Positions 9,301 to 24,860 of a DNA stretch of 64,000 nt are shown one piece after another. The stretch lies in contig NZ_FRXO01000012.1 of NCBI RefSeq assembly GCF_900148505.1, positions 59,252-123,251 on the forward strand. Direction: 5' to 3'. The stretch is from Pseudoxanthobacter soli DSM 19599 (lineage in GTDB: Bacteria > Pseudomonadota > Alphaproteobacteria > Rhizobiales > Segnochrobactraceae). The position numbers and the translations under genes are program-made. Under the pieces are notes generated by a model. That model was not told the DNA's origin, did no database searches, and saw only the letters and a program-made list of their open reading frames with translations. How positions within the stretch are numbered: the stretch's first letter is position 1; each line of letters begins with the position of its first letter.

Positions 9301-10137
9301 TCAGGCAGTGCGGGCGGCTGCGGCTGGCGGCTTGCCGGACATGATGACGCCGACGATCTCGTTCTGGTTGGTCTGCGACGTCTTCAGTTCCGCCGCGAGG
9401 CGGCCGCGATAGAGCACCGCGATGCGGTCGGTGACGCGCATCACGTCGTCCATGTTGTGGGTGATGTAGATCACCGCGACGCCCTGGCGGGCGAGCCGGC
9501 GGGCGAGTTCCATCACCTTGTTCTGCTCGGGCACGCTGAGGGCGGCGGTCGGCTCGTCGAGGATGACGAGATTGGCCTTCCAGCGGATGGCGCGGGCGAT
9601 GGCGATGGCCTGCCGCTGGCCGCCGGACAGGGCATCGACATTGACCCGGAGCGAGGGGATGTGGATGTCGAGCTGCTTCAGCGTCTCGGCCGCGTCGCGC
9701 TCCATCTCGCGCTTGCGGAGGATGCGGATGAGCCCGGGCACCAGATCGAACGTGCTTTCACGGCCGATGAAGAAATTGTCGGCAACCGGCAGGTTCGGCA
9801 CCAGCGCCAGATCCTGGAACACCGTCTCGATGCCGAGCTCGTGGGCGCGGTCGGGCGAGGTGATGCGCGCGGGCTCGCCGGCGCAGTGGATTTCGCCGCT
9901 GGTCGGCTGGTGCACGCCGGAGATGACCTTGACGAGGGTGGTCTTGCCCGCGCCGTTGTCGCCGAGCAGGCCGAGCACCTCGCCGCGCCGGACGTCCAGG
10001 GACACGCCGTCGAGCGCGGTGACGCCGCCGAAGCGCTTGCCGACATTGGTCAGCTTCAGGAAGCAGCTTCCCGCCTCGCCCGGCGACGGGGTGCCGGACG
10101 CGGGGGCGGCCGCCTGATAGGGCGCTGAAACGCTCAT
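9301..10137 (-). CDS. Sugar ABC transporter ATPase, single-domain FrcA type
   Basis: This 278-residue ATPase energises the CUT2-type permease encoded at 12244-13179. Walker A is GDNGAGKTT, the signature is LSGGQRQ, and Walker B is [12 protein letters not shown]. The H-loop lies in [10 protein letters not shown]. It has one nucleotide-binding domain, as in FrcA, unlike the tandem RbsA type. The start at 10137 is chosen because GGAGGA lies 6 nt upstream; the ATG at 10143 directly abuts that Shine-Dalgarno sequence. It is the last gene of the minus-strand sugar operon, 73 nt after the isomerase. Confidence 0.92.
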
Positions 10138-10210
10138 TCTCATTCCTCCCTGGGGACGCCTTCCGACTGGCCGCTGCGGGCGGCCGGGGCAAGCGCCTCT
10201 TGCCGTCGTT

Positions 10211-11035
10211 TCAGACGCCGAGCCGGTCGCAGAACGCCTTGCCTTCGGCGAGGATGGCGTCGTCGGAGCGCTCGAAGCCGTAGACCTGCGCCTCGTATTC
10301 CACCGACATCGCGCCGTCGTAGCCCGCCTCGCGCAGGAGAGCGGCGAGGCGGGGGAAGTCGATATTGCCCTCGCCGAGGGGCGGGAAGGCGAACGCCGGA
10401 AAGCGGCCGCTGCCGTCCTTCAGGTGCACGTTGGCGATGAGGTCGCCGAGTTCGGCCGGAACGCGGCCGGGGTCCTCGCCCTGCACTTCGAGGTGGCTCG
10501 GGTCGAAATTGATCCTGAACGGCACGCCCGGCAAATCACGGCGCAGGGCGTGATAATCGTCCACCCGGCAGAACAGGTGGCCGGCGATGGCCTCGATGCC
10601 GATCTCGACGCCGCGCGCGCGGGCGTGCTCGACGGTCGCGGCGACCGCGTCCGCGAACCAGCGCCAGCTTTCGCCCGATCGCGCGCCGGCGGCCTGCGGG
10701 CCGGACAGGATGTGCACGAAGCCGGTGCCGAGGTCGGCGGCGAGATCGGTGCAGCCGTTGACGAACGCGATGGCATCGGCGCGCACGGCCGGATCGGCGT
10801 CGACCATCTCGCCGATGTGCGCGCCGACGGCGGTGATGGCGAGGCCGTGCGCGGCGCAGGCGGCGCGGATCGCCGAGCGTGTCGCCGCGTCGGTCGCCGG
10901 CGTGACGTGGGGCTTCGCCCACGGCAGCAGCTCGGCGTTGAGTTCGATGCCCCGGTAGCCGGCGGCGGCGACGCGGGGGATCAGGTCGAGGATGCCGACA
11001 TCCGGCAGGCCGACGCTGTGAAAGGCGGTGATCAT
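10211..11035 (-). CDS. Sugar phosphate isomerase/epimerase-like TIM-barrel protein
   Basis: This 274-residue protein is of the xylose-isomerase-like (AP_endonuc_2) fold. Likely metal ligands are visible in IGIEAIAGHLF (Glu), INFDPSHLEVQG (Asp, His), ANVHLKDG (His) and the terminal MSVEYEAQ (Glu). Such enzymes isomerise, epimerise or dehydrate keto-sugars and cyclitols. It begins 9 nt after the Gfo/Idh/MocA gene stop, so the two probably act in sequence on the imported sugar. The exact reaction cannot be assigned. Confidence 0.88.
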   Translation of the reverse strand: MITAFHSVGLPDVGILDLIPRVAAAGYRGIELNAELLPWAKPHVTPATDAATRSAIRAACAAHGLAITAVGAHIGEMVDADPAVRADAIAFVNGCTDLAADLGTGFVHILSGPQAAGARSGESWRWFADAVAATVEHARARGVEIGIEAIAGHLFCRVDDYHALRRDLPGVPFRINFDPSHLEVQGEDPGRVPAELGDLIANVHLKDGSGRFPAFAFPPLGEGNIDFPRLAALLREAGYDGAMSVEYEAQVYGFERSDDAILAEGKAFCDRLGV

Positions 11036-11044
11036 CGGGCGGCC

Positions 11045-12172
11045 TCAGGCGTAGGTGGGGATCTTGAACGGCGCGTCGGCCGGAAGCGGAAGTTCGACCC
11101 AGCCGCCCTTGTCGAGCGACAGATAGGCCGCCTGGATCACCTCCTGGGCGCGCAGGCCGTCGAGGCCGGTGACGAGCGCCGGGCGGTGCTCGGCGATGCT
11201 GGTGCGGAAGGCTTCCAGCTGGGCGTCGTAGGGGCTGCGGCGCGGCGGCTTCACGGGAATCCAGCCGCCCTTGAAGGTCTCCCACCACGCATCGGGATAG
11301 TGTGCCTCGCGCAGCACGTCCGGCAGGTCGGCCACGCCTTTCTCTGTGTAGACCGCGAGCGGCACGGCGTTGAACGGATTGATCGTCTCGCTCGCGATGT
11401 GGATCGTGCCCTCGGTGCCGTAGATGTCGGTGCCGTCGCCGATGTTCGGCGAGTAGCGGTTGCCCGACAGGCAGCCGCGGGCGCCGTTCCCGAACCGGGT
11501 GAGCAGCCAGACATTGTCGTCGACCTTCTCGGTCATCTCGCTGTGGGCGAGTTCGGCGAAGACCGCCGAATAGTCGCCGACGAGGTGCCGGGCGAGATCG
11601 ATGCGGTGGATGGTGAGGTCGATGATGGTGGCGCCGCCCGACTGGGCGAGATCGTAGCGGTAGCGGGTGGAGGCGGGGTAGGCGGTCGACTTCTCCGAAT
11701 AGTTCGAGCGGATCTGGTGAACCTTGCCGATGAAGCCGCTATCGATCAGCTCCTTGGCGATCTGCACCTGCGACCAGAAGCGCTGGTTGAAGCCGACCTG
11801 GAGCACCACGCCGGCCTTCTCGCAGGCCTCCACCATGCGCCGGGAGCCGGCGACGTCGATGCTGAGTGGCTTTTCGCAGAACACGTGCTTGCCATGCGCG
11901 GCGGCGGCGACCACGCCGGCCTCATGGAAGCGGTTGGGGGTGGCGACGATCACCGCGTCCACGCCGGCCTTGCCGAGCATCGCTTCCAGATCGTCATAGG
12001 GCGCGCCGCCGAACTCGTCGGCGATGGCCTTCGCGTTCTCGAAGTTGACGTCGAACACGGCGGTGAGCTCGGTGTTCGGATTGCGCCGGATGGTCGGGGC
12101 GTGGCTGAGGCGCATGATGGCGCCCGCGCCGATCAGGCCGATCTTCAGGCGGGGAGCGGAGGCGGAGGGCAT
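11045..12172 (-). CDS. Gfo/Idh/MocA family NAD(P)-dependent oxidoreductase
   Basis: This 375-residue dehydrogenase has an N-terminal Rossmann motif (IGLIGAGAIMRLSHAP), the family EKP motif (HVFCEKPLS) and an active-site stretch GGATIIDLTIHRIDLARHL. Members oxidise the ring carbon of sugars or inositols. It lies between the permease and the TIM-barrel isomerase genes. A plausible route is oxidation of the imported sugar or cyclitol to a keto form, then processing by the isomerase. The start follows AAAAGGTG on the minus strand. Confidence 0.9.
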   Translation of the reverse strand: MPSASAPRLKIGLIGAGAIMRLSHAPTIRRNPNTELTAVFDVNFENAKAIADEFGGAPYDDLEAMLGKAGVDAVIVATPNRFHEAGVVAAAAHGKHVFCEKPLSIDVAGSRRMVEACEKAGVVLQVGFNQRFWSQVQIAKELIDSGFIGKVHQIRSNYSEKSTAYPASTRYRYDLAQSGGATIIDLTIHRIDLARHLVGDYSAVFAELAHSEMTEKVDDNVWLLTRFGNGARGCLSGNRYSPNIGDGTDIYGTEGTIHIASETINPFNAVPLAVYTEKGVADLPDVLREAHYPDAWWETFKGGWIPVKPPRRSPYDAQLEAFRTSIAEHRPALVTGLDGLRAQEVIQAAYLSLDKGGWVELPLPADAPFKIPTYA

Positions 12173-12243
12173 GGAGCACCTTTTCTGCAAACGCTGGGAC
12201 AGTCCAAGCGGGAACGTGCGCGAAGCGGGAACGGGGCGTCGCG

Positions 12244-13179
12244 CTACTTGATGATCTTCATCTTGCCGCGGCGGATCGAGATCATGACCGCGCCGACCAG
12301 CACGATGCCGGTGAGGATGGTCTGCACGTTGGTCGAGACGCCGAGAATGACGAGGCCATTGGCGAGCGCGGTGATGACGAGGCTGCCGACGACGGTGCCG
12401 ATGATCGAGCCGTGGCCGCCGGTGAGCGGCGTGCCGCCGATGACCACGGCCGAGATGGCGAGCAGCTCGAAGCCGACGCCGACGGTCGGGCTGCCGGAGC
12501 CGAGCTGCGAGGTGAGGATGCCGCCGCCGACGCCGGCGAGCAGGCCCGAGACGATGAACATGGCGAGCTTCACGCCATCCACCGGCACGCCGAGGATGCG
12601 GGTCTTCTCCTCGTCGCCGCCGATGGCCAGCGTATAGCGGCCGAAGGTGGTGAACGAGAGCAGGGCCGCCATCAGGACGGCGACGCAGAGCGCAATCAGG
12701 AACGGCGCGGGAGGCGTGCCGAAGAAATAGAAGTCGCTCGTCAGCGGGATCGGCACCGGGCGGCCGCCGGAGAACAGGATCGTCATGCCGCGGGCGACCG
12801 AGAGCATGCCGAGGGTGACGACGAACGAGGGAATGCGGCCGAACACGAACACCGAGCCGTTCACGGCGCCGAGCAGGGCGCCGACGATGGGCGCGGCAAC
12901 GAAGGCCCACGCGCCGAACGCCGGCGTGAGGCTCGCGGCGACCGCCCCGGAGAACGCCATCACGGAGCCGACGCTGAGGTCGATGCTGCCGCCGATGATG
13001 ATGAAGGTGATGCCGATCGCCACGATGCAGAGCACGGCGGCGTTCTGAAGGATGACGCCGAGATTGCCGGTCGTCAGGAACCGATCCGGCGACAGCACCC
13101 CGAACACCACGACGACGACCACGAGGGCGAGATAGGCGATGTATCGGGACAGCAGGTCGCCGACCTTGATGTTGCGCAT
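12244..13179 (-). CDS. Sugar ABC transporter permease, RbsC/FrcC type
   Basis: This 311-residue BPD_transp_2 permease has about 8-10 hydrophobic helices. The typical CUT2 phrases are present: IGITFIIIGGSIDLSVGSVMAF near residue 60 and SAVVIGGTPLTGGHGSIIGT in the last third. It pairs with the binding protein (13437-14486) and ATPase (9301-10137). The Shine-Dalgarno sequence is weak. The 257-bp gap separating it from the binding-protein gene contains a GC-rich hairpin, which suggests lower expression of the permease than of the binding protein. Confidence 0.93.
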   Translation of the reverse strand: MRNIKVGDLLSRYIAYLALVVVVVVFGVLSPDRFLTTGNLGVILQNAAVLCIVAIGITFIIIGGSIDLSVGSVMAFSGAVAASLTPAFGAWAFVAAPIVGALLGAVNGSVFVFGRIPSFVVTLGMLSVARGMTILFSGGRPVPIPLTSDFYFFGTPPAPFLIALCVAVLMAALLSFTTFGRYTLAIGGDEEKTRILGVPVDGVKLAMFIVSGLLAGVGGGILTSQLGSGSPTVGVGFELLAISAVVIGGTPLTGGHGSIIGTVVGSLVITALANGLVILGVSTNVQTILTGIVLVGAVMISIRRGKMKIIK

Positions 13180-13277
13180 GACGTGTTGGCTCGCCGCATG
13201 AACTCGGAAACGGGGATGCGAGAACGACGCGGGAAAGCCGGCGGACGGACCGCGCGGCTCTTCCCTTTCCGGCAGTC

Positions 13278-13303
13278 GCGGGCGCGCCTCGCGAAGCGCC
13301 CGC
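13278..13303 (-). repeat. GC-rich hairpin between binding-protein and permease genes
   Basis: An 8-bp stem, GCGGGCGC with GCGCCCGC, encloses a 10-nt loop. In a minus-strand transcript it follows the binding-protein coding region, where a stable stem often protects upstream mRNA or attenuates readthrough. No T-run follows. Confidence 0.5.
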
Positions 13304-13436
13304 ATGCTGTATCCGTTCCGCGGGCGCCGGAGGCCGCCCGGCGAGGCCGGGCTGACGCTGCGGAGCGCTACCGCCGGAGTGCGCCGCCCCGCCGCGGATC
13401 GAGATTCCGGCGGGACAGGCCCCGGCGCACGGACGG

Positions 13437-14486
13437 TTACTTCGTCTGGAGCGGGAACTGCTGCGACGTCGCCGACGGGTTGTTGGTGAGCGTGTACTGC
13501 TTCACGTCGTAGGGCGGCTCGCCCTCGATGAACTGCTTCTTGAAGGTGGCGAAGTTGCCGGAATCGACGCCCAGCAGATCGAGGCGCACCACCGGCTTGA
13601 TCGGCGGGTGGTTGTTGAGCTGGTCGTAGGCGATCATCACGCCGAAGCCGAGCTGCAGCCAGTGGCCGCCGGTTGAGAAGGTGTAGTTGGTCTTCTGCTC
13701 GATGAGGTCGAGAGCCTGCGGCACGAGATCCATGCCGGCGAGCTTGATTTCCTTCTCGCGGCCGGCCTGGCGCACGGCGCGGAAGGCGCCGAGGCAGAGC
13801 GCGTCGTTGTAGCACCACACCGCGTCGATGGAGCCGGCCGGGTGGGCGGCCAGCAGGTTCTGCATCGCCTGATAGCCGGCATCCTCGGATTCGCCGGCGC
13901 CGATATATTGCACGATCTCGACGCCCGAGGCGTCCTTGACGGCCTCGCGCAGGCCCTGTTCGCGGCCCTCGGCGACCGACGAGCCGGGAAGCCCGCCGAT
14001 GGCGACGATCTTCTTCGCGCCGTCCTTGATGAGGTGGGCAGCGATATCGCGGCCGGCGGTCACGTCGTTCGGGCCGATGAAGGCGACATAGGGCGCATCG
14101 GCGTTGCCGGGATCGAAGCCCGGATAGCGGTCGACGATGACGAGGGGAACGCCCGCGCGGGCAGCGAGGCGGATGATGCCCGGCGCGCTCGCGGTGGATT
14201 GCGGGGTGACGACGAGCGCCTGCGCGCCGGACGACAGCAGCGACTGCACGTCGGTGAGCTGCTTGTCTTCCTTGTTCTCGGCACCGACCACCGTGAGTTC
14301 GATGTTGAGCACCTTCGCGACGTGCTCGGCGAAATTCACGGCGTTCACCCAGAACGGGTTGTCGAGGGTGGGAATCGAGGCGCCGATCTTGATCGGGGCG
14401 GCCATCGCCGTGCCGGACAGCATGACGGCGGCGAGCGCCGCGGCGCCGCCCTTCAGCACGGCACGACGGTTGGTGCGAAGCTTCAT
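13437..14486 (-). CDS. Sugar-binding periplasmic protein (Peripla_BP_4, RbsB type)
   Basis: This 349-residue binding protein begins with a signal peptide containing a twin-arginine-like NRRAVLKGGAA start and an AMA-APIKIG cleavage region. The type I periplasmic-binding fold is shown by KIGASIPTLDNPFWVNAV, ALVVTPQSTASAP, GVPLVIVDRYPG and YVAFIGPNDVTAGRDIA. It is the first gene of the minus-strand sugar operon (binding protein, permease, oxidoreductase, isomerase, ATPase). It is divergent from the IclR regulator across a 376-bp gap. The ligand is likely a monosaccharide or cyclitol; the sequence does not decide which. Confidence 0.92.
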   Translation of the reverse strand: MKLRTNRRAVLKGGAAALAAVMLSGTAMAAPIKIGASIPTLDNPFWVNAVNFAEHVAKVLNIELTVVGAENKEDKQLTDVQSLLSSGAQALVVTPQSTASAPGIIRLAARAGVPLVIVDRYPGFDPGNADAPYVAFIGPNDVTAGRDIAAHLIKDGAKKIVAIGGLPGSSVAEGREQGLREAVKDASGVEIVQYIGAGESEDAGYQAMQNLLAAHPAGSIDAVWCYNDALCLGAFRAVRQAGREKEIKLAGMDLVPQALDLIEQKTNYTFSTGGHWLQLGFGVMIAYDQLNNHPPIKPVVRLDLLGVDSGNFATFKKQFIEGEPPYDVKQYTLTNNPSATSQQFPLQTK

Positions 14487-14715: not shown

Positions 14716-14862
14716 AATCGCCGTCCGCGTGTTGCAAAGGATGAGGCGTGGCGCGGTTCGTCGAAGGGAGGGTGACTCAATCGGCGGAAATCAACAACGA
14801 TGTTGACCAATGCGCAATGGATGCTTAGTCTGGTGTCACTCGCAATCGTGGAGCCAACCACA

Positions 14863-15684
14863 GTGGAAATCCGGTCGGTCACAAAGGCGCTCCGCCTTCT
14901 CGATGCCCTGGGGGAGCAGCCCGGCACGCTCGGCGTGTCGGAACTCGCCCGTCAGCTCGAAATCGACAAGAGCTCGGTGTCGCGGATGCTGCGGACGCTG
15001 GAAGTGGCCGGCTATGTGGAGCAGGACCCGGTGTCCCAGCGCTATTCGCTGGGCTTGCGCATGGGCATTCTCGGACACAAGGCGCTGCGGCGGATGGATC
15101 TGCGCACGGCGGCGCGGTCGTTCCTCGATGCCCTGGCCGAGGCCACCGGCGAGTGCAGCCACATCGCGATCCTGGCCGATCAGCGGGCCTTCTATATCGA
15201 TCAGGCCGCGCCCGCGCGGGGCGTCATCGTCGATGCTCCCATCGGCACCCTGGCCCCGGTCTATTGCACCGCGCTCGGCAAGTCGCTCCTCGCCTTCCAG
15301 CCGCAAAGCGTGCAGGACGACATCATCGCCGGCATCCAGTTCGAGCCCTATACCCGCCGCACCATCACCGACGCGGAGGCGCTGCGCCGCCACCTCGCGA
15401 CCGTGCAGGCCGCCGGGGTCGCATTCGACGACGAGGAATTCAGCATCGGCGTGCGCTGCCTTGCGGCGCCGATCTTCCGCTACGACGGCAATGTCTGCGG
15501 TGCCATCGGCGTGTCCGGCCCGAGCCCGCGCGTGACCGACGCGCGGCTGCAGGAATGGGAAGTGCTGGTGAAATCCATGGCCCGCGACCTTTCGGGGCGG
15601 CTCGGGTGGGAGCCTTCTGCCGAACCGGCGCCGGCGGCGAAGGACACGCGAAAAGTGAAAGAGGCGAGGGGCAGCGACATCTAG
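14863..15684 (+). CDS. IclR-family transcriptional regulator
   Basis: This protein has an N-terminal winged HTH (SVTKALRLLDALGEQPGTLG, then IDKSSVSRMLRTLEVAGYV) and a C-terminal IclR effector domain ending in GAIGVSGPSPRVTD. The GTG at 14863 is preferred because GGAG lies 9 nt upstream and the protein then begins at EIRSVTKAL, where relatives begin. In-frame ATGs at 14800 and 14821 would add up to 21 residues with no ribosome site. Divergence from the sugar transporter operon indicates that it controls that operon. The last 25 residues are a charged tail. Confidence 0.88.
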   Translation: MEIRSVTKALRLLDALGEQPGTLGVSELARQLEIDKSSVSRMLRTLEVAGYVEQDPVSQRYSLGLRMGILGHKALRRMDLRTAARSFLDALAEATGECSHIAILADQRAFYIDQAAPARGVIVDAPIGTLAPVYCTALGKSLLAFQPQSVQDDIIAGIQFEPYTRRTITDAEALRRHLATVQAAGVAFDDEEFSIGVRCLAAPIFRYDGNVCGAIGVSGPSPRVTDARLQEWEVLVKSMARDLSGRLGWEPSAEPAPAAKDTRKVKEARGSDI

Positions 15685-16012: not shown

Positions 16013-17890
16013 ATGAAGGAAACGGAAATGCGCGAACGCGCCGCCGCCGTGGCGGGCGCGGGCGGGGTCGTGCGCGCTCTCGAGGCCGGAACCCTGCCGG
16101 GCACGGTCGATGTCACCGTCTCGGAAGCGGTCGTGCTCGGCCTGCTCAAGCAGGGCGTGCGCAAGATCTTCGGCGTGCTCGGCCACGGCAACACCGATAT
16201 CGGCGAGGTACTGCGCGTCTACAGCGAGGCCGGTGCGCTGCGGTTCATCCAGTGCCGCAACGAAGTCGCGATGGCCCATGCCGCCACGGCGCTGTCGTGG
16301 ATATTCGGGGAGACGCCGGCAGTTCTGACCTCGATCGGACCCGGTGCGTTGCAGGCGCTGGCGGGCTCGCTCGCCGCTGCCTCCAACGGCGTCGGCGTCT
16401 ATCATCTCTACGGCGACGAGACCACGCACGGTGAAGGCCCGAACATGCAGCAGGTGCCGGGCACCCGCCAGCAGCAGTTCGGACGGCTGACCGAGATCAT
16501 GGGGCCGAGCTACACCCTGCACACGCCGGAGGCGTTGCGCGATGCGCTGCGCCGCGGCACGGCGGCCGTGCACCATCCCTATGCGGCGGCGCCGTTCTAC
16601 CTGAACCTGCCGATCAACGTGCAGCCGAAGACCATCGCCGGCCTCAGCCTCGACAGTCTGCCGGACCGGCTGGACATGCCGGTGCTGTCGCCGAGCGATC
16701 CCGCGACGTTCGCGCGGGCGGCCGAACTGATCGACCGCCATCCGCGCATCGTCGTCAAGGCGGGCGGCGGCGCCCGGCGCCACGCCGCGGCGGTGCGCCG
16801 GCTGGCCGAGCGGATCGGCGCGGCGGTGGTGCTGTCGCCGGGCTCCCTCGGCGTGCTGCCCGACGCCCATCCGCAGAACATGCATGTCGGTGGCAGCAAG
16901 GGCTCCATCAGCGGCAACTTCGCCATGGAACAGGCCGAACTCCTGATCGTGGTCGGCTCCCGCGCCGTCTGCCAGGCCGATTGCTCCGGCACCGGCTATC
17001 CCAATGCGCGGGCCGTCATCAACATCAACGCCGATATCGCCACGGCCACGCACTACAACCACACGCTGGCGCTGGTCGGCGACATCGGCGCCACCATCGA
17101 CGGGCTGCTCGGCCGCCTCGGCAACGCGCCGTCGGACATGCCGGAGGACCGCCGCGCGTTCCTCGAATCCTGCGCGGCGGCGAAGGCCGAGTGGGCGCGC
17201 CTGAAGGCCGAGCGCTGCGGCGACATCGCGCTGCCGGACCCGGTGTGGGGCCGGTCGGTGCTGACCCAGCCGAGCGCCATCGCGGTCGCGGCCGGCTTCG
17301 CGCGCGAGGTCGGCGCGGTGAAGCTGTTCGATGCCGGCGACGTGCAGGCGAACGGCTTCCAGGTGGTGGAAGACGATGCGCCGATGCAGACGGTGACGGA
17401 ATCCGGTGCCTCTTTCATGGGATTTGCCGCGAGCGCGCTGCTCGCTGCGGCGGTGGCGGACAAGCCCCGCCCGCTGATCGCGTTCTCCGGCGACGGTTCG
17501 TTCATGATGAGCCCGCAGATCCTGATCGATGCCGTCGAGCACCGCGCGAAGGGCACGCTGATCATCTTCGACAACCGCCGCATGGCGGCGATCTCCTCGC
17601 TCCAGGTCGCGCAATATGGTCCGGATTTCGGCACCAGCGATCATGTCGAGGTCGATTATGTGGCGCTGGCGGGGGCGGTGAAGGGCATCAACGCGCTGTT
17701 CGGCGGCACCGACGCCGCGACCCTGCGCGCGGCGCTGGAGAAGGCCCACGCCTATGACGGCTTCTCGGTGATCCACGTGCCGGTCTACTGGGGTCCCGAC
17801 GAGATCGCCGGTATGGGGGCCTACGGCCGCTGGAATGTCGGCCCGTGGGTGGAGACCGTCGAGGCGCTCTATAGCCGCCAGCCGATCTGA
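16013..17890 (+). CDS. ThDP-dependent enzyme, IolD-like
   Basis: This 625-residue thiamine-diphosphate enzyme has the PYR domain first, with catalytic Glu84 in CRNEVAMAHAA. A central TPP_M domain is marked by VVKAGGGARRHAAAVRRLAE. The PP domain carries the Mg/ThDP motif GDGS (493-496) through LIIFDN (about 519-524). Length and the N-terminal IFGVLGHGN phrase resemble IolD, a C-C hydrolase of the inositol pathway, more than the shorter 2-keto acid decarboxylases. AGAGG precedes the ATG. It heads a tight operon with an aldehyde dehydrogenase (16 nt later) and an IlvD/Edd dehydratase. The cofactor is certain. Whether it hydrolyses a diketone or decarboxylates a 2-keto-3-deoxy acid is not. Confidence 0.85.
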   Translation: MKETEMRERAAAVAGAGGVVRALEAGTLPGTVDVTVSEAVVLGLLKQGVRKIFGVLGHGNTDIGEVLRVYSEAGALRFIQCRNEVAMAHAATALSWIFGETPAVLTSIGPGALQALAGSLAAASNGVGVYHLYGDETTHGEGPNMQQVPGTRQQQFGRLTEIMGPSYTLHTPEALRDALRRGTAAVHHPYAAAPFYLNLPINVQPKTIAGLSLDSLPDRLDMPVLSPSDPATFARAAELIDRHPRIVVKAGGGARRHAAAVRRLAERIGAAVVLSPGSLGVLPDAHPQNMHVGGSKGSISGNFAMEQAELLIVVGSRAVCQADCSGTGYPNARAVININADIATATHYNHTLALVGDIGATIDGLLGRLGNAPSDMPEDRRAFLESCAAAKAEWARLKAERCGDIALPDPVWGRSVLTQPSAIAVAAGFAREVGAVKLFDAGDVQANGFQVVEDDAPMQTVTESGASFMGFAASALLAAAVADKPRPLIAFSGDGSFMMSPQILIDAVEHRAKGTLIIFDNRRMAAISSLQVAQYGPDFGTSDHVEVDYVALAGAVKGINALFGGTDAATLRAALEKAHAYDGFSVIHVPVYWGPDEIAGMGAYGRWNVGPWVETVEALYSRQPI

Positions 17891-17906
17891 CCGGGAGGGA
17901 CGAGGC

Positions 17907-19346
17907 ATGTACGCGCAATTCGGTCTTCTGATCGACGGAGCATGGCGCCCGGCGAAAGCGGGCGGAACGATCGCGGTGGTCGATCCGGCGGACGAGACGA
18001 TCGTCGGGACCATTCCGGCTGCCGGTCCGGAGGACCTCGACGAGGCGCTGGCGGCGCTGGAACGCGCGGCGCCGCGCTGGCGGGCGGTTTCCGGCTGGGA
18101 ACGGTCGCGGCTGATGCGCGGCATCGTCGAAGCGCTGCGCACGGTCGCGCCGGAGGCGGCGCTCGCCATGTCGGTCGAGACCGGCAAGCCGCTGGCGGAG
18201 GCGGCGGGCGAGTTCCAGGCCGCCATCGACCAGTTCGACTGGTATGCCGACGAGGCGCGGCGCATCTTCGGCCACACCCTCGACGGCCGCGACCCGGCCT
18301 CGCGGCTGCAGGTGCGCTACGATCCCGTGGGGCCGGTCGCGGCGTTCACGGCGTGGAATTTCCCGGCGCTGCTGCCGGCGCGCAAGATCGCCGCCGCGCT
18401 GGCGGCGGGGTGCCCCGTCGTGATCAAGCCGTCGGAGGAGGCGCCGTCGAGCACGTTCTTCATCGCGCGGGCGGCGATGGAGGCCGGGCTGCCGGCCGGC
18501 GTGCTCAACGTCGTCACCGGCCATGCCGCGCCGATCTCGGCGCATCTGATCGCCTCGCCGGTGATCCGCAAGGTGTCGCTGACGGGCTCGGTACCGGTCG
18601 GGAAACTGATCCTGCGGCAGTGCGCCGACAGCGTGAAGAAGGTGTCGATGGAACTCGGCGGCCATGCGCCGGTGCTGGTGTTTCCCGACGCCGATCCCAT
18701 CGCCGCCGGCACGATCTGCGCCCGCACCAAGTTCCGCAATGCCGGGCAGGTGTGCATCTCGCCGAGCCGGTTCTACGTCCATGAGGCGGTCTATGAGCCG
18801 TTCGTGCGGGCGATGGCGGAAACGGCGCGGGCGATCCGCATCGGCCGCGGGCGCGACGAGGGCGTGGAGTTCGGGCCGATGGCGAACGCGCGCGGGCGCG
18901 ACCGCATCGTCGAACTCGTCGCCGACGCCGTGGAGCGAGGGGCCGAGGTGCTGGCCGGCGGCTCGATCCCCGACGGGCGCAATGCCGGCTTCTTCTTCTC
19001 GCCGACCGTGCTCGGCCGCGTGCCCGACGACGCCCGCATCATGCGCGAGGAGCCGTTCGGCCCGGTCGCGCCCGTCGCCACGTTCACCGACTTCGACGAG
19101 GTCGTGCGGCGCGCCAACGACGTGCCGTTCGGCCTCGCCGGCTATGTGTTCTCCCGTTCGCTTGAGACCGCGAACCGCGCCGCCGAGGCGCTGGAGGCCG
19201 GCATGGTCGGCGTCAACGACATGCTGCTGGCCGCCGCCGAGATTCCCTTCGGCGGAATCAAGGAAAGCGGCATGGGACGCGAGGGCGGCAGGCTCGGTAT
19301 CCTCGACTATCTCGAACCGAAATATGTGAAGCTCAAGCTGGCCTGA
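17907..19346 (+). CDS. NAD(P)-dependent aldehyde dehydrogenase, succinate-semialdehyde-dehydrogenase-like
   Basis: This 479-residue ALDH has the general-base Glu in MELGGHAPVLVF, the nucleophile Cys in FRNAGQVCISPSR, and the EEPFGPVAPV motif. It is soluble and of normal length. It lies 16 nt after the ThDP-enzyme gene and 12 nt before the dehydratase gene. It probably oxidises the aldehyde released by the ThDP enzyme to the acid. GGGAGGGACGAGG precedes the ATG. Confidence 0.92.
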   Translation: MYAQFGLLIDGAWRPAKAGGTIAVVDPADETIVGTIPAAGPEDLDEALAALERAAPRWRAVSGWERSRLMRGIVEALRTVAPEAALAMSVETGKPLAEAAGEFQAAIDQFDWYADEARRIFGHTLDGRDPASRLQVRYDPVGPVAAFTAWNFPALLPARKIAAALAAGCPVVIKPSEEAPSSTFFIARAAMEAGLPAGVLNVVTGHAAPISAHLIASPVIRKVSLTGSVPVGKLILRQCADSVKKVSMELGGHAPVLVFPDADPIAAGTICARTKFRNAGQVCISPSRFYVHEAVYEPFVRAMAETARAIRIGRGRDEGVEFGPMANARGRDRIVELVADAVERGAEVLAGGSIPDGRNAGFFFSPTVLGRVPDDARIMREEPFGPVAPVATFTDFDEVVRRANDVPFGLAGYVFSRSLETANRAAEALEAGMVGVNDMLLAAAEIPFGGIKESGMGREGGRLGILDYLEPKYVKLKLA

Positions 19347-19358
19347 TCGGACGCGACC

Positions 19359-21083
19359 ATGACGACGAAAGACCAGAAATCCGGCGGCGAGCATGGCTTC
19401 GCGCGCGGCCTGACCAATTACGGCGACCGCCGGTTCTCGCTCTATCTGCGCCGCTCGTTCGCAAGCTCGATGGGCTACAGCCGCGAGATGCTGGAGCGGC
19501 CGATCGTCGGCATCGCGCATTCCGCGAGCGGCTTCAACAACTGCCACCGCCACTTCCCCGAGCTGATCGAGGCGGTGAAGCGCGGCGTGCTGGCGGCGGG
19601 CGCGCTGCCGGTGGAGTTCCCGACGATCTCGCTCGGCGAGGTGTTCCTGTCGCCGACGAGCCTGAAGTTCCGCAACCTGATGTCGATGGACGTGGAGGAG
19701 ATGATCCGCGCCCAGCCGATGGACGCGGTGGTGCTGCTCGGCGGCTGCGACAAGACCGTGCCCGCCCAGCTCATGGGTGCCGCCTCGGCGGACCTGCCGG
19801 CGATCCAGCTCGTGGCCGGGCCGATGTCGACGAGCCGCCATCGCGGCGAGCGCCTCGGCGCCTGCACCGACTGCCGGCGGTTCTGGCAACGCTATCGCGC
19901 CGGCTCGGTCAGCGAGCCGGAGATCGACGCCGTGGAGAAGCGCCTCGCCTCGACCGCCGGCACCTGCGCCGTGATGGGCACCGCCTCGACCATGGCTTCC
20001 ATCGTCGAGGCGCTCGGCATGATGCCGGCCGGCGGCGCCGCGATCCCCGCCGTCGACGCCGACCGGCTGCGCATGGCGGAGGAGACCGGGCGGGTGGCGG
20101 TGTCGCTGATCGGCGATGACAGCCGCCGGCCGAGCGCGATCATGACGGCGGAGGCGTTCGAGAACGCGGTGCGCGTCCTGCTCGCCCTCGGCGGCTCGAC
20201 CAATGCGGTGGTGCATCTCGCCGCGATCATGGGCCGGTTCGGGCTGAAATTCGATTTCACGCGCATGAACGCCCTCAGCGACACCACGCCCGTGCTCGTG
20301 GACCTCAAGCCCACCGGCGACGCCTACATGGAGGATCTGCACGCCGCCGGCGGCATTCCCGCCGTGATGCGCGAGCTGAAGCACCTGCTGCACCTCGATT
20401 GCCGCACGATCACCGGCGAGACCGTCGGCGAGCGCATCGCGGCGGCCGATCCCTGGATCGACCGCGCGGTCGTGCGCGGCCTCGATGCGCCGATCCGCGC
20501 GGACGGCGGCCTCGTCGCCCTGTTCGGCAACCTCGCGCCGCGCGGCGCGATCATGAAGCGCTCCGCCGCCGACCCGGCGCTGTTCGAGCGCGAGGGCCGG
20601 GCGGTGGTGTTCACTTCGCTCGCCGACCTCGCGGCGCGGATCGACGATCCCGACCTCGACGTCACGGCGGACGACTTCCTCGTGCTGCAGAATGCCGGCC
20701 CGACGAGCGACGCCGCGATGCCGGAGGCCGGCTACCTGCCGATCCCCGCCAAGCTCGCGAGGGCCGGGGTGAAGGACATGGTGCGGATGTCGGACGCGCG
20801 CATGTCGGGCACGGCCTACGGCACCATCGTGCTGCACATTGCGCCAGATGCGGCATCCGGCGGGCCGCTCGGGCTGGTGCGCAACGGCGACCGCATCCGC
20901 CTCAGTGTGCGCGACAAGGCGCTGGAACTTCTGGTCGACGAAGCCGAACTGGAGCGCCGCCGCGCGGAGGCGAACGTGGCCGCGGCAGTGCCGGCGAAGC
21001 CGGCGCGGGGCTACGCCCGGCTCTATGACGAGCACATCCTCCAGGCCGACGAAGGGTGCGATTTCGACTTCCTGCGCGCCTGA
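19359..21083 (+). CDS. IlvD/Edd-family dehydratase (sugar-acid type)
   Basis: This 574-residue Fe-S dehydratase has cluster cysteines in FNNCHRHF, GGCDKTVPA and GTCAVMGTAST. LALGGSTNAVVH and GTAYGTIVLHI are also family motifs. Members dehydrate dihydroxy acids or aldonates to 2-keto-3-deoxy acids. It differs from the pentonate-type homologue at 38006-39805 in length and in the first cysteine context (NNC versus SPCN). As third gene of the operon it would supply a 2-keto-3-deoxy acid to the ThDP enzyme. The substrate is unknown. Confidence 0.9.
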   Translation: MTTKDQKSGGEHGFARGLTNYGDRRFSLYLRRSFASSMGYSREMLERPIVGIAHSASGFNNCHRHFPELIEAVKRGVLAAGALPVEFPTISLGEVFLSPTSLKFRNLMSMDVEEMIRAQPMDAVVLLGGCDKTVPAQLMGAASADLPAIQLVAGPMSTSRHRGERLGACTDCRRFWQRYRAGSVSEPEIDAVEKRLASTAGTCAVMGTASTMASIVEALGMMPAGGAAIPAVDADRLRMAEETGRVAVSLIGDDSRRPSAIMTAEAFENAVRVLLALGGSTNAVVHLAAIMGRFGLKFDFTRMNALSDTTPVLVDLKPTGDAYMEDLHAAGGIPAVMRELKHLLHLDCRTITGETVGERIAAADPWIDRAVVRGLDAPIRADGGLVALFGNLAPRGAIMKRSAADPALFEREGRAVVFTSLADLAARIDDPDLDVTADDFLVLQNAGPTSDAAMPEAGYLPIPAKLARAGVKDMVRMSDARMSGTAYGTIVLHIAPDAASGGPLGLVRNGDRIRLSVRDKALELLVDEAELERRRAEANVAAAVPAKPARGYARLYDEHILQADEGCDFDFLRA

Positions 21084-21251
21084 GGTGCGGGCGGGCTGCG
21101 GCATTCTTGGCCGCCGGTTGACCGGGCGACGGCCCGCTCTCGTCCGCCAGTTGACCGGGGCGACGGTGTTGGCTTGATAGGGAGACGGATCGGGAAGACC
21201 GGCGAGCGGTCGCCGGACTTCCTCCGGGTCCGACACGGAGTCCGCCGCCGC

Positions 21252-22277
21252 ATGTGGGACCGCCATCCGGTCAGCCTGTCGCTGATTCATATGCTGCCGG
21301 ACGTCGCGGCCCGGCGCGGCCTTGCGCTGCCGCCGCTGCTCGCCCGGGCGGGGATCGCGCGGGACATAGCACCGGACCGGACGGTGGCGCGGGCGCAGGT
21401 CGCGACCGTGCTCCTGGAAATGGCGCGTCATGCGGGCGAGGCGGAAATCGGGCTCGACCTGGCGGCGGCCGCCGATCCGTCGCGGCTCGGCCTGATGGGG
21501 CATGCGCTGTTTTCCGGACGGACGCTGCGCGAGTGCCTGCACGCCCAGGCCGCCCACATGCCGACCTTCCAGCGGGGCGTCAGTCTTGCCCTCGACGAGC
21601 GCGACGGCCGGGCGCACTGGCGCCACGTGCTCGCCGACAGCGATCCCGAACACGCCCGGGTGCTCAACGAAGGCATCGCGGGGTTCGTCGTCCGGGCGTT
21701 GCGCGCCATCGCCGGCGATGCGGGCGGCGCGATCCATGTCGGGCTGCCCCATCGCGCCCTGGCGCCGATGCGCACCTACGAGGACAAGCTCGGCAGCGAC
21801 GTCTCGTTCGCCAGCGGCGCAGGCGTGGCGGTGAGTTTCGATGCCGCATGGCTCGACCGCCCCAATCCGTTCTTCGCCCGCAACCGGCTTTCCCCGGAGA
21901 TCGCGGCGCTGCCGCTGCCGGGCCGGGGCTTCCTCATCGACGATGCGGGCCTGATCGAGGCGCTCCGGCTGATCATCGCCGCCGCCGCGCTGAGCGGCAC
22001 CCTGTCGCTGCCGGATGCCGCCCGCAGCCTCGGCCTGCCGCCGCGCAGCCTGCAACGCCGGCTCGCCTCTCTCGGCACCTCGTTCGAGATGCTGGTCGAC
22101 GAGTGGCGGCGCGAGGCGGCCCGGCGCCATCTCGCGGACCCGGCGCTGTCCGTCGGCTCGATCACCCGCCTGCTCGGCTACCGCGACCCGGCGCATTTCG
22201 TGCGGGCGTTCCGGCGATGGGAAGGCGAGGCCCCGGTCGCCTACCGCAAGGTTCTTCTGGCGCGAAATGGCAATTGA
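21252..22277 (+). CDS. AraC-family regulator with Arabinose_bd/OruR-type sensory domain
   Basis: About 341 residues. The N-terminal domain resembles the Arabinose_bd domain of OruR/ArgR-type regulators (LARAGIARDIAPDRTVARAQ, then GLMGHALFSGRTLRECL). The C-terminal double HTH is SLPDAARSLGLPPRSLQRRL and VGSITRLLGYRDPAHFVRAFRRWEGEAP. The ATG at 21252 fits the usual protein start, although its ribosome site is weak; a TTG at 21174 is in frame. It sits between the ThDP/ALDH/dehydratase operon and the sulfatase operon on the same strand. It may control either or both. Confidence 0.85.
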   Translation: MWDRHPVSLSLIHMLPDVAARRGLALPPLLARAGIARDIAPDRTVARAQVATVLLEMARHAGEAEIGLDLAAAADPSRLGLMGHALFSGRTLRECLHAQAAHMPTFQRGVSLALDERDGRAHWRHVLADSDPEHARVLNEGIAGFVVRALRAIAGDAGGAIHVGLPHRALAPMRTYEDKLGSDVSFASGAGVAVSFDAAWLDRPNPFFARNRLSPEIAALPLPGRGFLIDDAGLIEALRLIIAAAALSGTLSLPDAARSLGLPPRSLQRRLASLGTSFEMLVDEWRREAARRHLADPALSVGSITRLLGYRDPAHFVRAFRRWEGEAPVAYRKVLLARNGN

Positions 22278-22389
22278 GCGCCGGTGGGCGGGTTGGCTAT
22301 GGCTGACTCAGGCGCGACACGGATGTCCGTGAGCCATCGGCGGTGATTCCGGCGTGGCTTGCGCACCCTGGAGCGTGAGTAAAGCGGTT

Positions 22390-23388
22390 ATGAAGGTCCT
22401 CGACCCCGTGGCCCCGACGACGGACGGCCCGATGGCGGAAGCCGCGCCATCCGGCATGGTCTGGATCGCCGGCGGCACCTTCCTCATGGGATCCGACGAT
22501 CACTATCCCGAGGAAGCTCCCGCGCATCCGGTGGCCGTCGACGGCTTCTTCATCGATCCGACACCGGTGACCAATGCCGCGTTCGCCCGCTTCGTGGACG
22601 CGACCGGCTATGTGACGGTGGCGGAACGGGTGCCCCGTGCCGAGAACTATCCCGGTGCCGATCCGCTGCTGCTCGTGCCGGGTTCCCTCGTTTTCGTCGC
22701 ACCCGACGATGACGGCAATCCGGACGACTGGACGCGGTGGTGGCGCTTCGAGCCCGGTGCCTGCTGGCGCCGGCCGCAGGGACCGGACAGCAGCGTCGAC
22801 GGGCTGATGGACCATCCCGTGGTCCATATCTGCCACGAGGACGCAACGGCCTATGCCGCCTGGGCCGGCAAGGAACTGCCGAGCGAGGCGGAATGGGAGT
22901 TCGCCGCCCGCGGCGGGCTCGAAGGCGCCGCGTTCGCCTGGGGCGACGACCTCGTGCCGGACGGCATCCATCGCGCCAACACCTGGCAGGGCCGCTTCCC
23001 CCGCGAGAACCTCGCCGAGGACGGCTATGCCGGAACGTCGCCCGTCACCGCCTTCCCGCCGAACGGCTACGGATTGTTCGATCTGATCGGCAACGTGTGG
23101 GAGTGGACCGACGACTGGTACCGCCCGCGCCACGCCGCGCCCGCCGCGAAGGCGTGCTGCCTGCCGCGCAACCCGCGCGGGGGCAGCGCCACGGACAGCG
23201 TCGATCCCTTTTCACCGGGCCCGCCCTCGCCCCGCAAGGTGCTGAAGGGCGGCTCCCACCTCTGCGCTCCCAGCTATTGCCGGCGCTACCGCCCCGCGGC
23301 GCGCCAGCCCCAGACCGTCGACACCGCCTCCGTCCACATCGGCTTCCGGTGCGTGCGGCGTGTCGCGACCAAACGAGGATCCGAATGA
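22390..23388 (+). CDS. Formylglycine-generating enzyme (SUMF1/FGE family)
   Basis: This 332-residue copper-dependent oxidase converts the sulfatase active-site cysteine to formylglycine. The fold is marked by MVWIAGGTFLMGSDDHYPEEAP near the N-terminus and LIGNVWEWTDDWY. The catalytic pair is present in GGSHLCAPSYCRRYRPAAR, so the enzyme should be active. It ends HIGFRC. The ATG at 22390 is chosen; GTGs at 22354 and 22375 are in-frame alternatives. The stop overlaps the sulfatase start by 3 nt (ATGA), the expected maturase-substrate coupling. Confidence 0.94.
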   Translation: MKVLDPVAPTTDGPMAEAAPSGMVWIAGGTFLMGSDDHYPEEAPAHPVAVDGFFIDPTPVTNAAFARFVDATGYVTVAERVPRAENYPGADPLLLVPGSLVFVAPDDDGNPDDWTRWWRFEPGACWRRPQGPDSSVDGLMDHPVVHICHEDATAYAAWAGKELPSEAEWEFAARGGLEGAAFAWGDDLVPDGIHRANTWQGRFPRENLAEDGYAGTSPVTAFPPNGYGLFDLIGNVWEWTDDWYRPRHAAPAAKACCLPRNPRGGSATDSVDPFSPGPPSPRKVLKGGSHLCAPSYCRRYRPAARQPQTVDTASVHIGFRCVRRVATKRGSE

Positions 23389-24860
23389 CCGACGAAAACG
23401 CCTCTTCCTCCCCCACGGCCGGCGGCCCGAGCCGGCGCGACGTGCTGGCGGGCGGCACCGGCTTCCTGGCGGCCATCGCCGGCCTGTCCATGCTGGCGCC
23501 CGGCGCGCGTGCAGCCGATGCGCCGCGGCCGCATGTGCTCTACATCGTCGCCGACGATCTCGGCTTCGCCGATGTCGGCTTCCATGGCTCGGACATCAAG
23601 ACGCCGAACCTCGACCGGCTCGCCGCCGAGGGCGCTAAGCTCGGCCAGTTCTACACCCAGCCGATGTGCACGCCGACCCGCGCCGCGCTGCTGACGGGGC
23701 GCTATCCGCTGCGCTATGGCCTGCAGACCGGCGTCATTCCGTCGGGCGCGAGCTACGGGCTCGCCACCGACGAGTTCCTGCTGCCGCAGGCCTTGAAGGA
23801 GGCCGGCTACCGCACCGCGCTGGTCGGAAAATGGCATCTCGGCCATGCCGACCGGAAGTACTGGCCGCTCCAGCGCGGGTTCGACAGCTTCTACGGACCG
23901 CTCGTCGGCGAGATCGACCACTTCAAGCACGAAGCGCACGGCGTCACCGACTGGTATCGCGGCAACGAGCTCGTGAAGGAAGAAGGCTACGACACCGATC
24001 TCCTCGGCGCGGAGGCGGTGCGGCTCGTCGGCAAGCACGATCCAGCCACGCCGCTGTTCCTCTATCTCGCCTTCACCGCGCCGCACACGCCCTATCAGGC
24101 GCCCGAGAGCTATCTCGCCCGGTACGCCGGCATCGCCGATCCGGCCCGGCGCGCCTACGCCGCGATGATCACCGCCATGGACGACCAGATCGGCAAGGTG
24201 GTGGCGGCGCTGGAGGCCCGCGGGATGCGGGACGACACGCTGATCGTGTTCCATTCCGACAACGGTGGAACGCGCGACAAGATGTTCGCCGGCGAGGGCG
24301 CGGTCAGCGGCGACCTGCCGCCGGACAACGCCCCCTACCGCGCCGGCAAGGGAACGCTCTATGAAGGCGGCGTGCGCGTCGTGGCGCTGGCCAACTGGCC
24401 GGGGCGCATCCGCACCGGCGAGGCCGAGGGCGTGATGCACGTGGTCGACATGCTGCCGACGCTGGCGAAGCTCGCCGGCGCGAGCCTCGACCGTTCCAAG
24501 CCGCTCGACGGCCGCGACATGTGGCAGGCGCTCGCGGCGGGCGCGGCCGGCCGCAGCGAGGTGGTCTACAATGTCGAGCCGACCCAGGGCGCGGTCCGCG
24601 ACGGCAAGTGGAAGCTCGTCTGGCATGTCGTGCTGCCGCCGCGGGTCGAACTGTTCGACCTCGACGCCGATCCGTCGGAGAAGACCGACATTTCCGCGCA
24701 GCATCCCGCAAAGGTGGCCGAGCTGCAGGGCAAGGTGGTCGATCTCGCACGCACGATGGCGCCGCCGCTGTTCTATACCGCCGCGCTGAAGGCGACCCTC
24801 TCCGCGCCGCTGGCGACGCCGGACGCGGCACTCTACGAGATGGGGCTGGAGGAGGATTGA
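23385..24860 (+). CDS. Cys-type sulfatase with Tat-like signal
   Basis: This 491-residue sulfatase has an N-terminal SRRDVLAGG twin-arginine-like signal, so it is probably exported folded after formylglycine formation. The signature CTPTRAALLTGR gives nucleophile Cys95. Metal-binding VADDLGFADVG, GKWHLG and HSDNGG are intact. It hydrolyses a sulfate ester, most like the arylsulfatase/N-acetylgalactosamine-sulfatase group; the natural substrate is unknown. FGE precedes it and a beta-barrel protein gene follows with a TGATG overlap. The unit therefore looks built for sulfated carbohydrate or sulfate scavenging at the cell surface. Confidence 0.94.
   Translation: MTDENASSSPTAGGPSRRDVLAGGTGFLAAIAGLSMLAPGARAADAPRPHVLYIVADDLGFADVGFHGSDIKTPNLDRLAAEGAKLGQFYTQPMCTPTRAALLTGRYPLRYGLQTGVIPSGASYGLATDEFLLPQALKEAGYRTALVGKWHLGHADRKYWPLQRGFDSFYGPLVGEIDHFKHEAHGVTDWYRGNELVKEEGYDTDLLGAEAVRLVGKHDPATPLFLYLAFTAPHTPYQAPESYLARYAGIADPARRAYAAMITAMDDQIGKVVAALEARGMRDDTLIVFHSDNGGTRDKMFAGEGAVSGDLPPDNAPYRAGKGTLYEGGVRVVALANWPGRIRTGEAEGVMHVVDMLPTLAKLAGASLDRSKPLDGRDMWQALAAGAAGRSEVVYNVEPTQGAVRDGKWKLVWHVVLPPRVELFDLDADPSEKTDISAQHPAKVAELQGKVVDLARTMAPPLFYTAALKATLSAPLATPDAALYEMGLEED

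Follow-up and report, generated by a model that had tools for sequence, protein, structure and literature searches.

A conserved gene unit of an IolD-related ThDP enzyme, an aldehyde dehydrogenase and an IlvD/Edd dehydratase as the likely mark of an undescribed route

A three-gene unit in the window

The DNA analysed here is a stretch of 64,000 nucleotides from Pseudoxanthobacter soli DSM 19599 (contig NZ_FRXO01000012.1), the whole of which is referred to as the window. It carries three consecutive genes on the + strand, encoding a thiamine diphosphate (ThDP)-dependent enzyme, an aldehyde dehydrogenase (ALDH) and an IlvD/Edd dehydratase, which are listed below.

16013..17890, + strand: ThDP-dependent enzyme of 625 aa, IolD-related, in a clade of its own; proposed C-C cleaver (Pfam, NCBIfam, tree, motifs)
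17907..19346, + strand: ALDH of 479 aa; top NCBIfam model is succinate-semialdehyde dehydrogenase, below its cut-off; proposed oxidiser of the released aldehyde
19359..21083, + strand: IlvD/Edd dehydratase of 574 aa; PRK06131 subfamily, above cut-off; lacks the C-terminal His that sugar acid dehydratases have

The three genes form one tight unit with gaps of 16 bases (ThDP-ALDH) and 12 bases (ALDH-IlvD/Edd), and both Pfam and NCBIfam support the family assignment of all three proteins, so that the trio stands as a preliminary description of this DNA had drawn it. The ALDH likely starts at the Met at 17907, its open frame itself opening at 17835. The same description had noted the lack of a kinase or KDG aldolase, and in agreement with it we found no kinase and no KDG/KDPG aldolase among ten further surrounding proteins checked by Pfam (IclR, AraC, binding protein, GFO, TIM barrel, ABC ATPase, formylglycine-generating-type enzyme (FGE), permease, sulfatase and beta-lactamase-fold protein), the remaining window not having been scanned for them. 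The co-occurrence of the trio in many, mostly proteobacterial, genomes likely reflects a route not described before, and no description of the unit was found in the literature searched, which consisted of open-licence papers. The component enzymes belong to known superfamilies; what appears to be undescribed is the way they are combined, the clade of the ThDP enzyme and its pairing with a dehydratase that lacks the His.

Conservation and linkage of the unit

Relatives were collected by a genome contig scan, which gave 256 confirmed relatives, the best 80 of which were kept for locus counts. Partner counts are based on the 67 of these 80 loci with at least 3.4 kb of downstream sequence, and the term fully flanked is used for the 55 loci whose sequence reaches 8 kb or more upstream and 3.4 kb or more downstream. 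Both the ALDH and the IlvD/Edd gene lie beside the ThDP gene in 45 of the 67 loci, only the IlvD/Edd gene in 4, only the ALDH gene in 2 and neither in 16. The linkage of the three genes, whose absence the preliminary description had named as a refutation, is thus conserved. Identical gene order is found in records titled alpha-, beta- and gammaproteobacteria. Correlation of the identity matrices over 53 loci, to which host relatedness contributes, is 0.87 for ThDP-ALDH, 0.88 for ThDP-IlvD and 0.90 for ALDH-IlvD, while the maxima in 999 permutations are 0.31, 0.38 and 0.28, respectively.

A protein search with the ThDP enzyme gave 4990 matches (E <= 0.001), a number which also takes in distant ThDP enzymes; identity is 62 to 97% among the 120 matches listed. 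A strong match is present in 5 of 61 genomes comprising the own genome and its relatives (E < 1e-200), and the enzyme occurs in 7 of 385 genomes of the class, the own one counted (E <= 1e-120). A streamlined genome of the same class, G433 (1.24 Mb, single contig, 99% complete), contains a full 11-gene operon uninterrupted by any additional gene (L147 3301-17089), which runs IclR, MDR, three Mo-hydroxylase genes, TctC, TctB, TctA, ThDP, ALDH and IlvD. An IclR-type gene is also present in 43 of the 55 fully flanked relatives.

The ThDP enzyme forms a clade next to IolD

The ThDP enzyme scores 155.1 bits against the IolD model TIGR04377, far under the cut-off of 715; for members of the family in G039 and G019 the scores are 169 and 151 bits. 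In our tree, which has long branches and whose reference rows exclude BFD and KivD, the 25 rows of the ThDP family constitute one clade (100/100), located outside the IolD clade. This clade is sister to 11 IolD rows (100/98) and separate from the rows of AHAS, Gcl and PoxB and from ThDP enzymes that carry no family name. A search with TIGR03394 (E <= 1e-60) for BFD and KivD references gave no match in 21 genomes. The placement asked for in the preliminary description thus falls outside the characterised families tested, and the IolD-likeness proposed there is supported by the sister position and by common motifs. GHG, NE..MA.AA, GD before the QQ motif and DN for NN are common to the ThDP family and IolD and absent in the AHAS, Gcl and PoxB rows; GHG is also present in two unnamed ThDP rows (u_L118 and u_L128).

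Membership in the ThDP superfamily is evident from G493, D494, G495, N521 and E84, all present in 206/206 rows, and from three Pfam domains. His58 and the catalytic Glu84 are invariant (206/206 rows). Three alignments to cyclohexane-1,2-dione hydrolase (CDH) have a start offset of 30, which would place His58 at His28 of CDH by offset only; His28 is the residue altered in the CDH variant CDH_H28A_N484A (excerpt of PMC12247030). The HH motif of the PDC/IPDC type (standard positions 114 and 115) is absent in the ThDP family. Met145-Gln146 of the window protein (M in 204/206 and Q in 206/206 rows) align with Phe-Gln of the AHAS row, a mapping that rests on that alignment, and Phe-Gln is given as the commonest pair at standard positions 114 and 115 in an excerpt of PMC3534367. 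Comparison of a structure model of the enzyme (pLDDT 84.0) with solved structures did not part hydrolases from decarboxylases or AHAS, CDH lying 2 to 3 Z units under the top matches.

A separate true IolD is encoded elsewhere in the own genome (824.6 bits, above the IolD cut-off), and its neighbours are a PF01261 TIM barrel, an RpiR-family regulator and an ALDH. Because of this second IolD, and with the ThDP enzyme of the trio under the IolD cut-off, we rejected the assumption that the trio is simply the plain inositol pathway of the organism. The canonical IolD region (L120, own genome C4:28000-36500) has an HpcH/HpaI-family match immediately behind it (C4:36260-36838).

A dehydratase without the C-terminal His

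The dehydratase scores 803.2 bits against the PRK06131 dihydroxy-acid dehydratase subfamily (NF004784), well above the cut-off of 539, and its best solved-structure match is 8ej0 (533.5 bits), an enzyme of Paralcaligenes ureilyticus (excerpt of PMC11316719). The same excerpt states that a C-terminal His is fully conserved in the sugar acid dehydratases (SADHT) of IlvD/Edd. After setting aside 4 of 62 dehydratase sequences in which the tail motif is not intact, we found this His at the end of none of the 58 intact tails (0/58), and His elsewhere in the tail in 4/58. It is likewise missing from plasmid homologues for which the stretch shown has no ThDP gene (0/7), their neighbourhoods being mixed, and from copies located in trans (0/5), while a 47%-identical dehydratase of L166 does carry it. 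As judged from these sequences, absence of the His is a trait of the dehydratase subfamily and not of the ThDP partnership. Replacement of the C-terminal His by Phe in PuDHT raises activity on D-glycerate about six-fold; the characterised dehydratases act poorly on D-glycerate, which is not a natural substrate for them (excerpt of PMC9314677). Because of the missing His and this effect in PuDHT, the substrate of the His-less subfamily may be other than C5/C6 aldonates.

The ALDH scores 485.7 bits against the succinate-semialdehyde dehydrogenase model TIGR01780, below the cut-off of 646.35.

Oxidoreductases and importers around the unit

A minus-strand cluster (9301-14486), which the preliminary description did not mention, is divergent from the trio and encodes a CUT2-type importer, an IolG-like GFO/IDH/MocA oxidoreductase and a TIM barrel. 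The genes on both sides of the trio are as follows.

9301..10143, - strand: ATPase of a sugar ABC importer (Pfam, NCBIfam)
10211..11035, - strand: xylose-isomerase-like TIM barrel (PF01261); weak matches to hydroxypyruvate isomerase, IolO and IolE
11045..12172, - strand: GFO/IDH/MocA oxidoreductase, IolG-like (Pfam, NCBIfam)
12244..13179, - strand: ABC importer permease (PF02653; Pfam)
13437..14486, - strand: CUT2-type sugar-binding protein (PF13407; Pfam)
14800..15684, + strand: IclR-type regulator, upstream of the trio; open reading frame as listed, the true start may be downstream
21174..22277, + strand: AraC-type regulator with an arabinose-binding-like N-terminal domain (PF12625), directly 3' of the trio; best NCBIfam match QhpR, below cut-off
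22354..24860, + strand: FGE (PF03781) adjoining a sulfatase (PF00884, likely start 23385), downstream of the trio

The best NCBIfam match of the window GFO/IDH/MocA enzyme is IolG, at 169 bits against a cut-off of 355, the scored stretch being without the first 14 residues. IolG is the top NCBIfam match of each of the four GFO enzymes scanned from units, in all cases below cut-off. The GFO and TIM barrel pair of the window lies beside the trio in L025, L026, L027 and L029 as well, together with a CUT2 binding protein in 3 of these 4.

An oxidoreductase is located upstream in all 55 fully flanked loci. The front end consists of a zinc MDR and a Mo hydroxylase in 44 of them (with Tct importer genes in 36 of the 44), of GFO and TIM barrel in 4, and of a different GFO enzyme placed immediately before the ThDP gene in 6 (GFO17 loci). 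The last one, L084, has a Mo enzyme, an IolO-like TIM barrel, a metallo-beta-lactamase-fold protein and Tct genes, with no MDR within the fetched stretch. For the MDR, IolM is the third NCBIfam match behind two threonine dehydrogenase models, all below cut-off. Two of the 385 class genomes have an MDR of this type, and both belong to the 7 that carry the ThDP enzyme; it is missing from the remaining 5, which include the own one. On a Salipiger plasmid, genes for a beta-hydroxyacid dehydrogenase, a heme-binding-type protein, a TIM barrel and a TRAP importer lie between the ThDP gene and the ALDH-IlvD pair. Importers found beside the unit across the loci are of the Tct, TRAP, CUT1 and CUT2 types.

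The ThDP gene is tied to its oxidoreductase neighbours more faithfully than to ALDH and IlvD. Among 17 genomes searched in which the ThDP locus has no adjacent IlvD, 8 have an IlvD elsewhere at 69 to 73% identity and 4 at 57 to 62%, and in 5 the best full-length match is 47 to 48%, one of these also having partial matches up to 59%. The neighbours of the in-trans IlvD genes, judged by eye from the starts of open reading frames, look unrelated and gave no hint of a pathway. In 19 searched genomes with no ALDH at the locus, the best match to the window ALDH has 41 to 48% identity, as compared to 54 to 82% within units. Since the oxidoreductases remain neighbours of the ThDP gene even at loci where ALDH and IlvD are not adjacent, the ThDP enzyme would act directly on the product of the dehydrogenase, and the 16 of 67 loci with neither partner adjacent suggest that the ThDP enzyme acts first of the trio.

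Some further features were observed around these loci. The large subunit of the Mo hydroxylase is split (L037 2935-5825 and other Tct-type loci): 2Fe-2S domains are fused to the N-terminal half of the Mo subunit, and the C-terminal half is a separate gene. Genes of the PntAB transhydrogenase type follow the trio in L033 (15186-18208) and L130 (19980-22998, annotated there). Their clusters, present in 10 and 7 of 82 loci, are a hint that they balance NAD(P)H for the route. A BLUF-domain gene (PF04940) adjoins the operon in L102 (242-676) and relatives, its cluster being present in 15 of 82 loci. We did not build on a link of the sulfatase to the trio because neither the window sulfatase nor the FGE has a match in the 80 relative loci (E <= 1e-15). 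On the Labrenzia plasmid L131, an arylsulfatase and a formylglycine-generating enzyme are annotated upstream of the unit, at a distance of some kb. A serine beta-lactamase-fold protein (PF00144) is encoded at 25769-26980 (- strand) of the window, and no connection with the trio was seen.

Proposed route and its alternatives

We tentatively prefer a reading, possible though short of probable, in which the trio makes up the lower end of a catabolic route that needs no kinase, with IolD-type cleavage by the ThDP enzyme followed by ALDH and IlvD/Edd. For the window, the predicted importer of the substrate is the CUT2-type sugar transporter; the GFO/IDH/MocA enzyme would oxidise the imported compound, and the TIM-barrel protein would isomerise, epimerise or dehydrate it. 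Across the loci, an imported cyclitol, keto-sugar or sugar acid would be converted to a dicarbonyl by GFO, MDR or Mo enzymes, and the ThDP enzyme would split a C-C bond of this dicarbonyl in the manner of IolD. The released aldehyde would then be converted by the ALDH to a 2,3-dihydroxy acid, from which the IlvD/Edd enzyme would form a 2-keto-3-deoxy acid, and the cleavage products would feed central metabolism without a kinase. We infer the order of the reactions, the preference for hydrolytic over decarboxylating cleavage and the substrate class (cyclitol, keto-sugar or sugar acid) from the above observations; the gene order ThDP-ALDH-IlvD matches the proposed order of reactions. Compounds derived from apionate or ascorbate were weighed as substrates as well; apionate is mentioned in none of the 15 papers listed out of 3,280.

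It is conceivable, if doubtful, that the route is a complete kinase-free counterpart of the inositol pathway, kept whole as the 11-gene operon in the 1.24-Mb genome. Dehydrogenases would in that case make the dicarbonyl from a cyclitol or keto-sugar, a ThDP hydrolase would open or split it, the ALDH would give a (di)acid and the His-less IlvD/Edd enzyme a 4-hydroxy-2-oxo acid, with the route ending in a generic HpaI/GarL-type aldolase or in direct entry. G433 has no PF01081 aldolase, its sole PF00701 protein is DapA and its sole PF03328 protein is HpaI/GarL-like (290.6 and 259.4 bits, below cut-off); the own genome has 3 PF01081, 9 PF00701 and 3 PF03328 matches. Because of the HpaI/GarL-like aldolase in G433, pyruvate is not forced as the end product, and a pyruvate-only end product failed as proof of a C4 route.

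Several points limit the case for IolD-type cleavage at the head of the trio. The best PDB sequence matches of the ThDP enzyme are AHAS I and JanthE, and its structure matches are led by AHAS and an HKA synthase. Moreover, the argument from gene neighbours is indirect, since the ThDP enzyme was itself the search query and the 16 loci without adjacent partners stem from few clades. The main rival is that the ThDP enzyme decarboxylates a C(n) 2-keto aldonate supplied by the dehydrogenases to a C(n-1) aldose, which the ALDH oxidises to the C(n-1) aldonate and IlvD/Edd dehydrates; from a C4 start (2-oxo-tetronate), this would lead through glyceraldehyde and glycerate to pyruvate with no aldolase or kinase needed. 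Gene order and front ends fit this rival equally well, and the lack of a PF01081 aldolase in G433, the Salipiger beta-hydroxyacid dehydrogenase (top models include tartronate semialdehyde reductase and L-threonate dehydrogenase, below cut-off) and a dehydratase without the C-terminal His, whose exchange for Phe boosts the D-glycerate activity of PuDHT, speak in its favour. However, the nearest family in the tree is IolD, G433 has the HpaI/GarL-like aldolase, D-glycerate is poor and non-natural for the characterised dehydratases (excerpt of PMC9314677), and the HH motif is absent, although most decarboxylases are also without HH (excerpt of PMC3534367). On balance we regard 2-keto aldonate decarboxylation as rather unlikely, yet as the alternative to be taken most seriously.

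The preliminary description had offered two models. In one of them the IlvD/Edd enzyme acts first and dehydrates an aldonate, the ThDP enzyme removes CO2 from the resulting 2-keto-3-deoxy acid, and the 3-deoxy hydroxyaldehyde formed in this way is oxidised by the ALDH. GFO or Mo enzymes could supply such an aldonate, and the dehydratase is above the PRK06131 cut-off with the sugar acid dehydratase 8ej0 as best structure match. This model has nevertheless lost ground and seems improbable to us: the ThDP enzyme is beside IolD in the tree and without the HH motif, its gene keeps the oxidoreductase neighbours at loci that have no dehydratase gene beside it, and the product would be a 3-deoxy acid for which no user enzyme is seen in the conserved unit. 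The other model, IolD-like cleavage of a dicarbonyl followed by ALDH, fits the data better, its substrate being putative. A very unlikely alternative is that the ThDP enzyme is a carboligase or synthase similar to AHAS or JanthE, joining a keto acid to a carbonyl compound within another kind of pathway; the PDB and structure matches given above argue for it, but the enzyme does not group with AHAS or Gcl in the tree, and the importers, oxidoreductases and ALDH nearby form a catabolic setting.

If the proposed cleavage route is true, a ThDP family that databases name IolD (JGI names) or merely thiamine pyrophosphate-dependent enzyme would mark a separate catabolic route, and the C-C cleaving ThDP enzymes would gain a member that acts on a new substrate. 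The route would also help to identify the compounds imported via the neighbouring Tct, TRAP, CUT1 and CUT2 systems.

Comparison with known systems

CDH, which carries out physiological C-C cleavage of a cyclic dione (excerpt of PMC12247030), resembles the ThDP enzyme in its fold and, as far as the alignment offset can tell, perhaps in a His at the CDH His28 position. It differs in sharing only ~20% identity and is not the top PDB match by sequence or structure. The Salipiger plasmid locus combines a ThDP enzyme, a TIM barrel and a beta-hydroxyacid dehydrogenase as the Gcl-Hyi-GlxR operon does (compare E. coli). However, the catalytic Glu kept in 206/206 rows of the ThDP family is missing in Gcl (E. 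coli row; excerpt of PMC3534367).

The unit shares the dehydratase superfamily, an ALDH and an oxidative front end with the Weimberg and Dahms pentose pathways (RlArDHT, CcXylDHT, PuDHT). In contrast to these, it has a ThDP enzyme instead of an aldolase or a second dehydratase, and the C-terminal His is absent in 58/58 intact tails. A standard Weimberg or Dahms route was rejected because the unit has no aldolase and the ThDP enzyme is there instead.

The Thermotoga-type inositol route (IolM, IolN, IolO) is not known to have a ThDP enzyme, ALDH or IlvD. The MDR of L033 scores 208 bits to IolM and IolO is the best match of the TIM barrel of L037, both below cut-off. The canonical iol system is the myo-inositol pathway with its IolG/IolE/IolD branch. 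An IolG-like oxidoreductase, a TIM barrel and an IolD-like ThDP enzyme, sister to IolD, co-occur in the window also, but the ThDP enzyme is far under the IolD cut-off, and ALDH and IlvD/Edd are present in place of IolB, IolC and IolJ.

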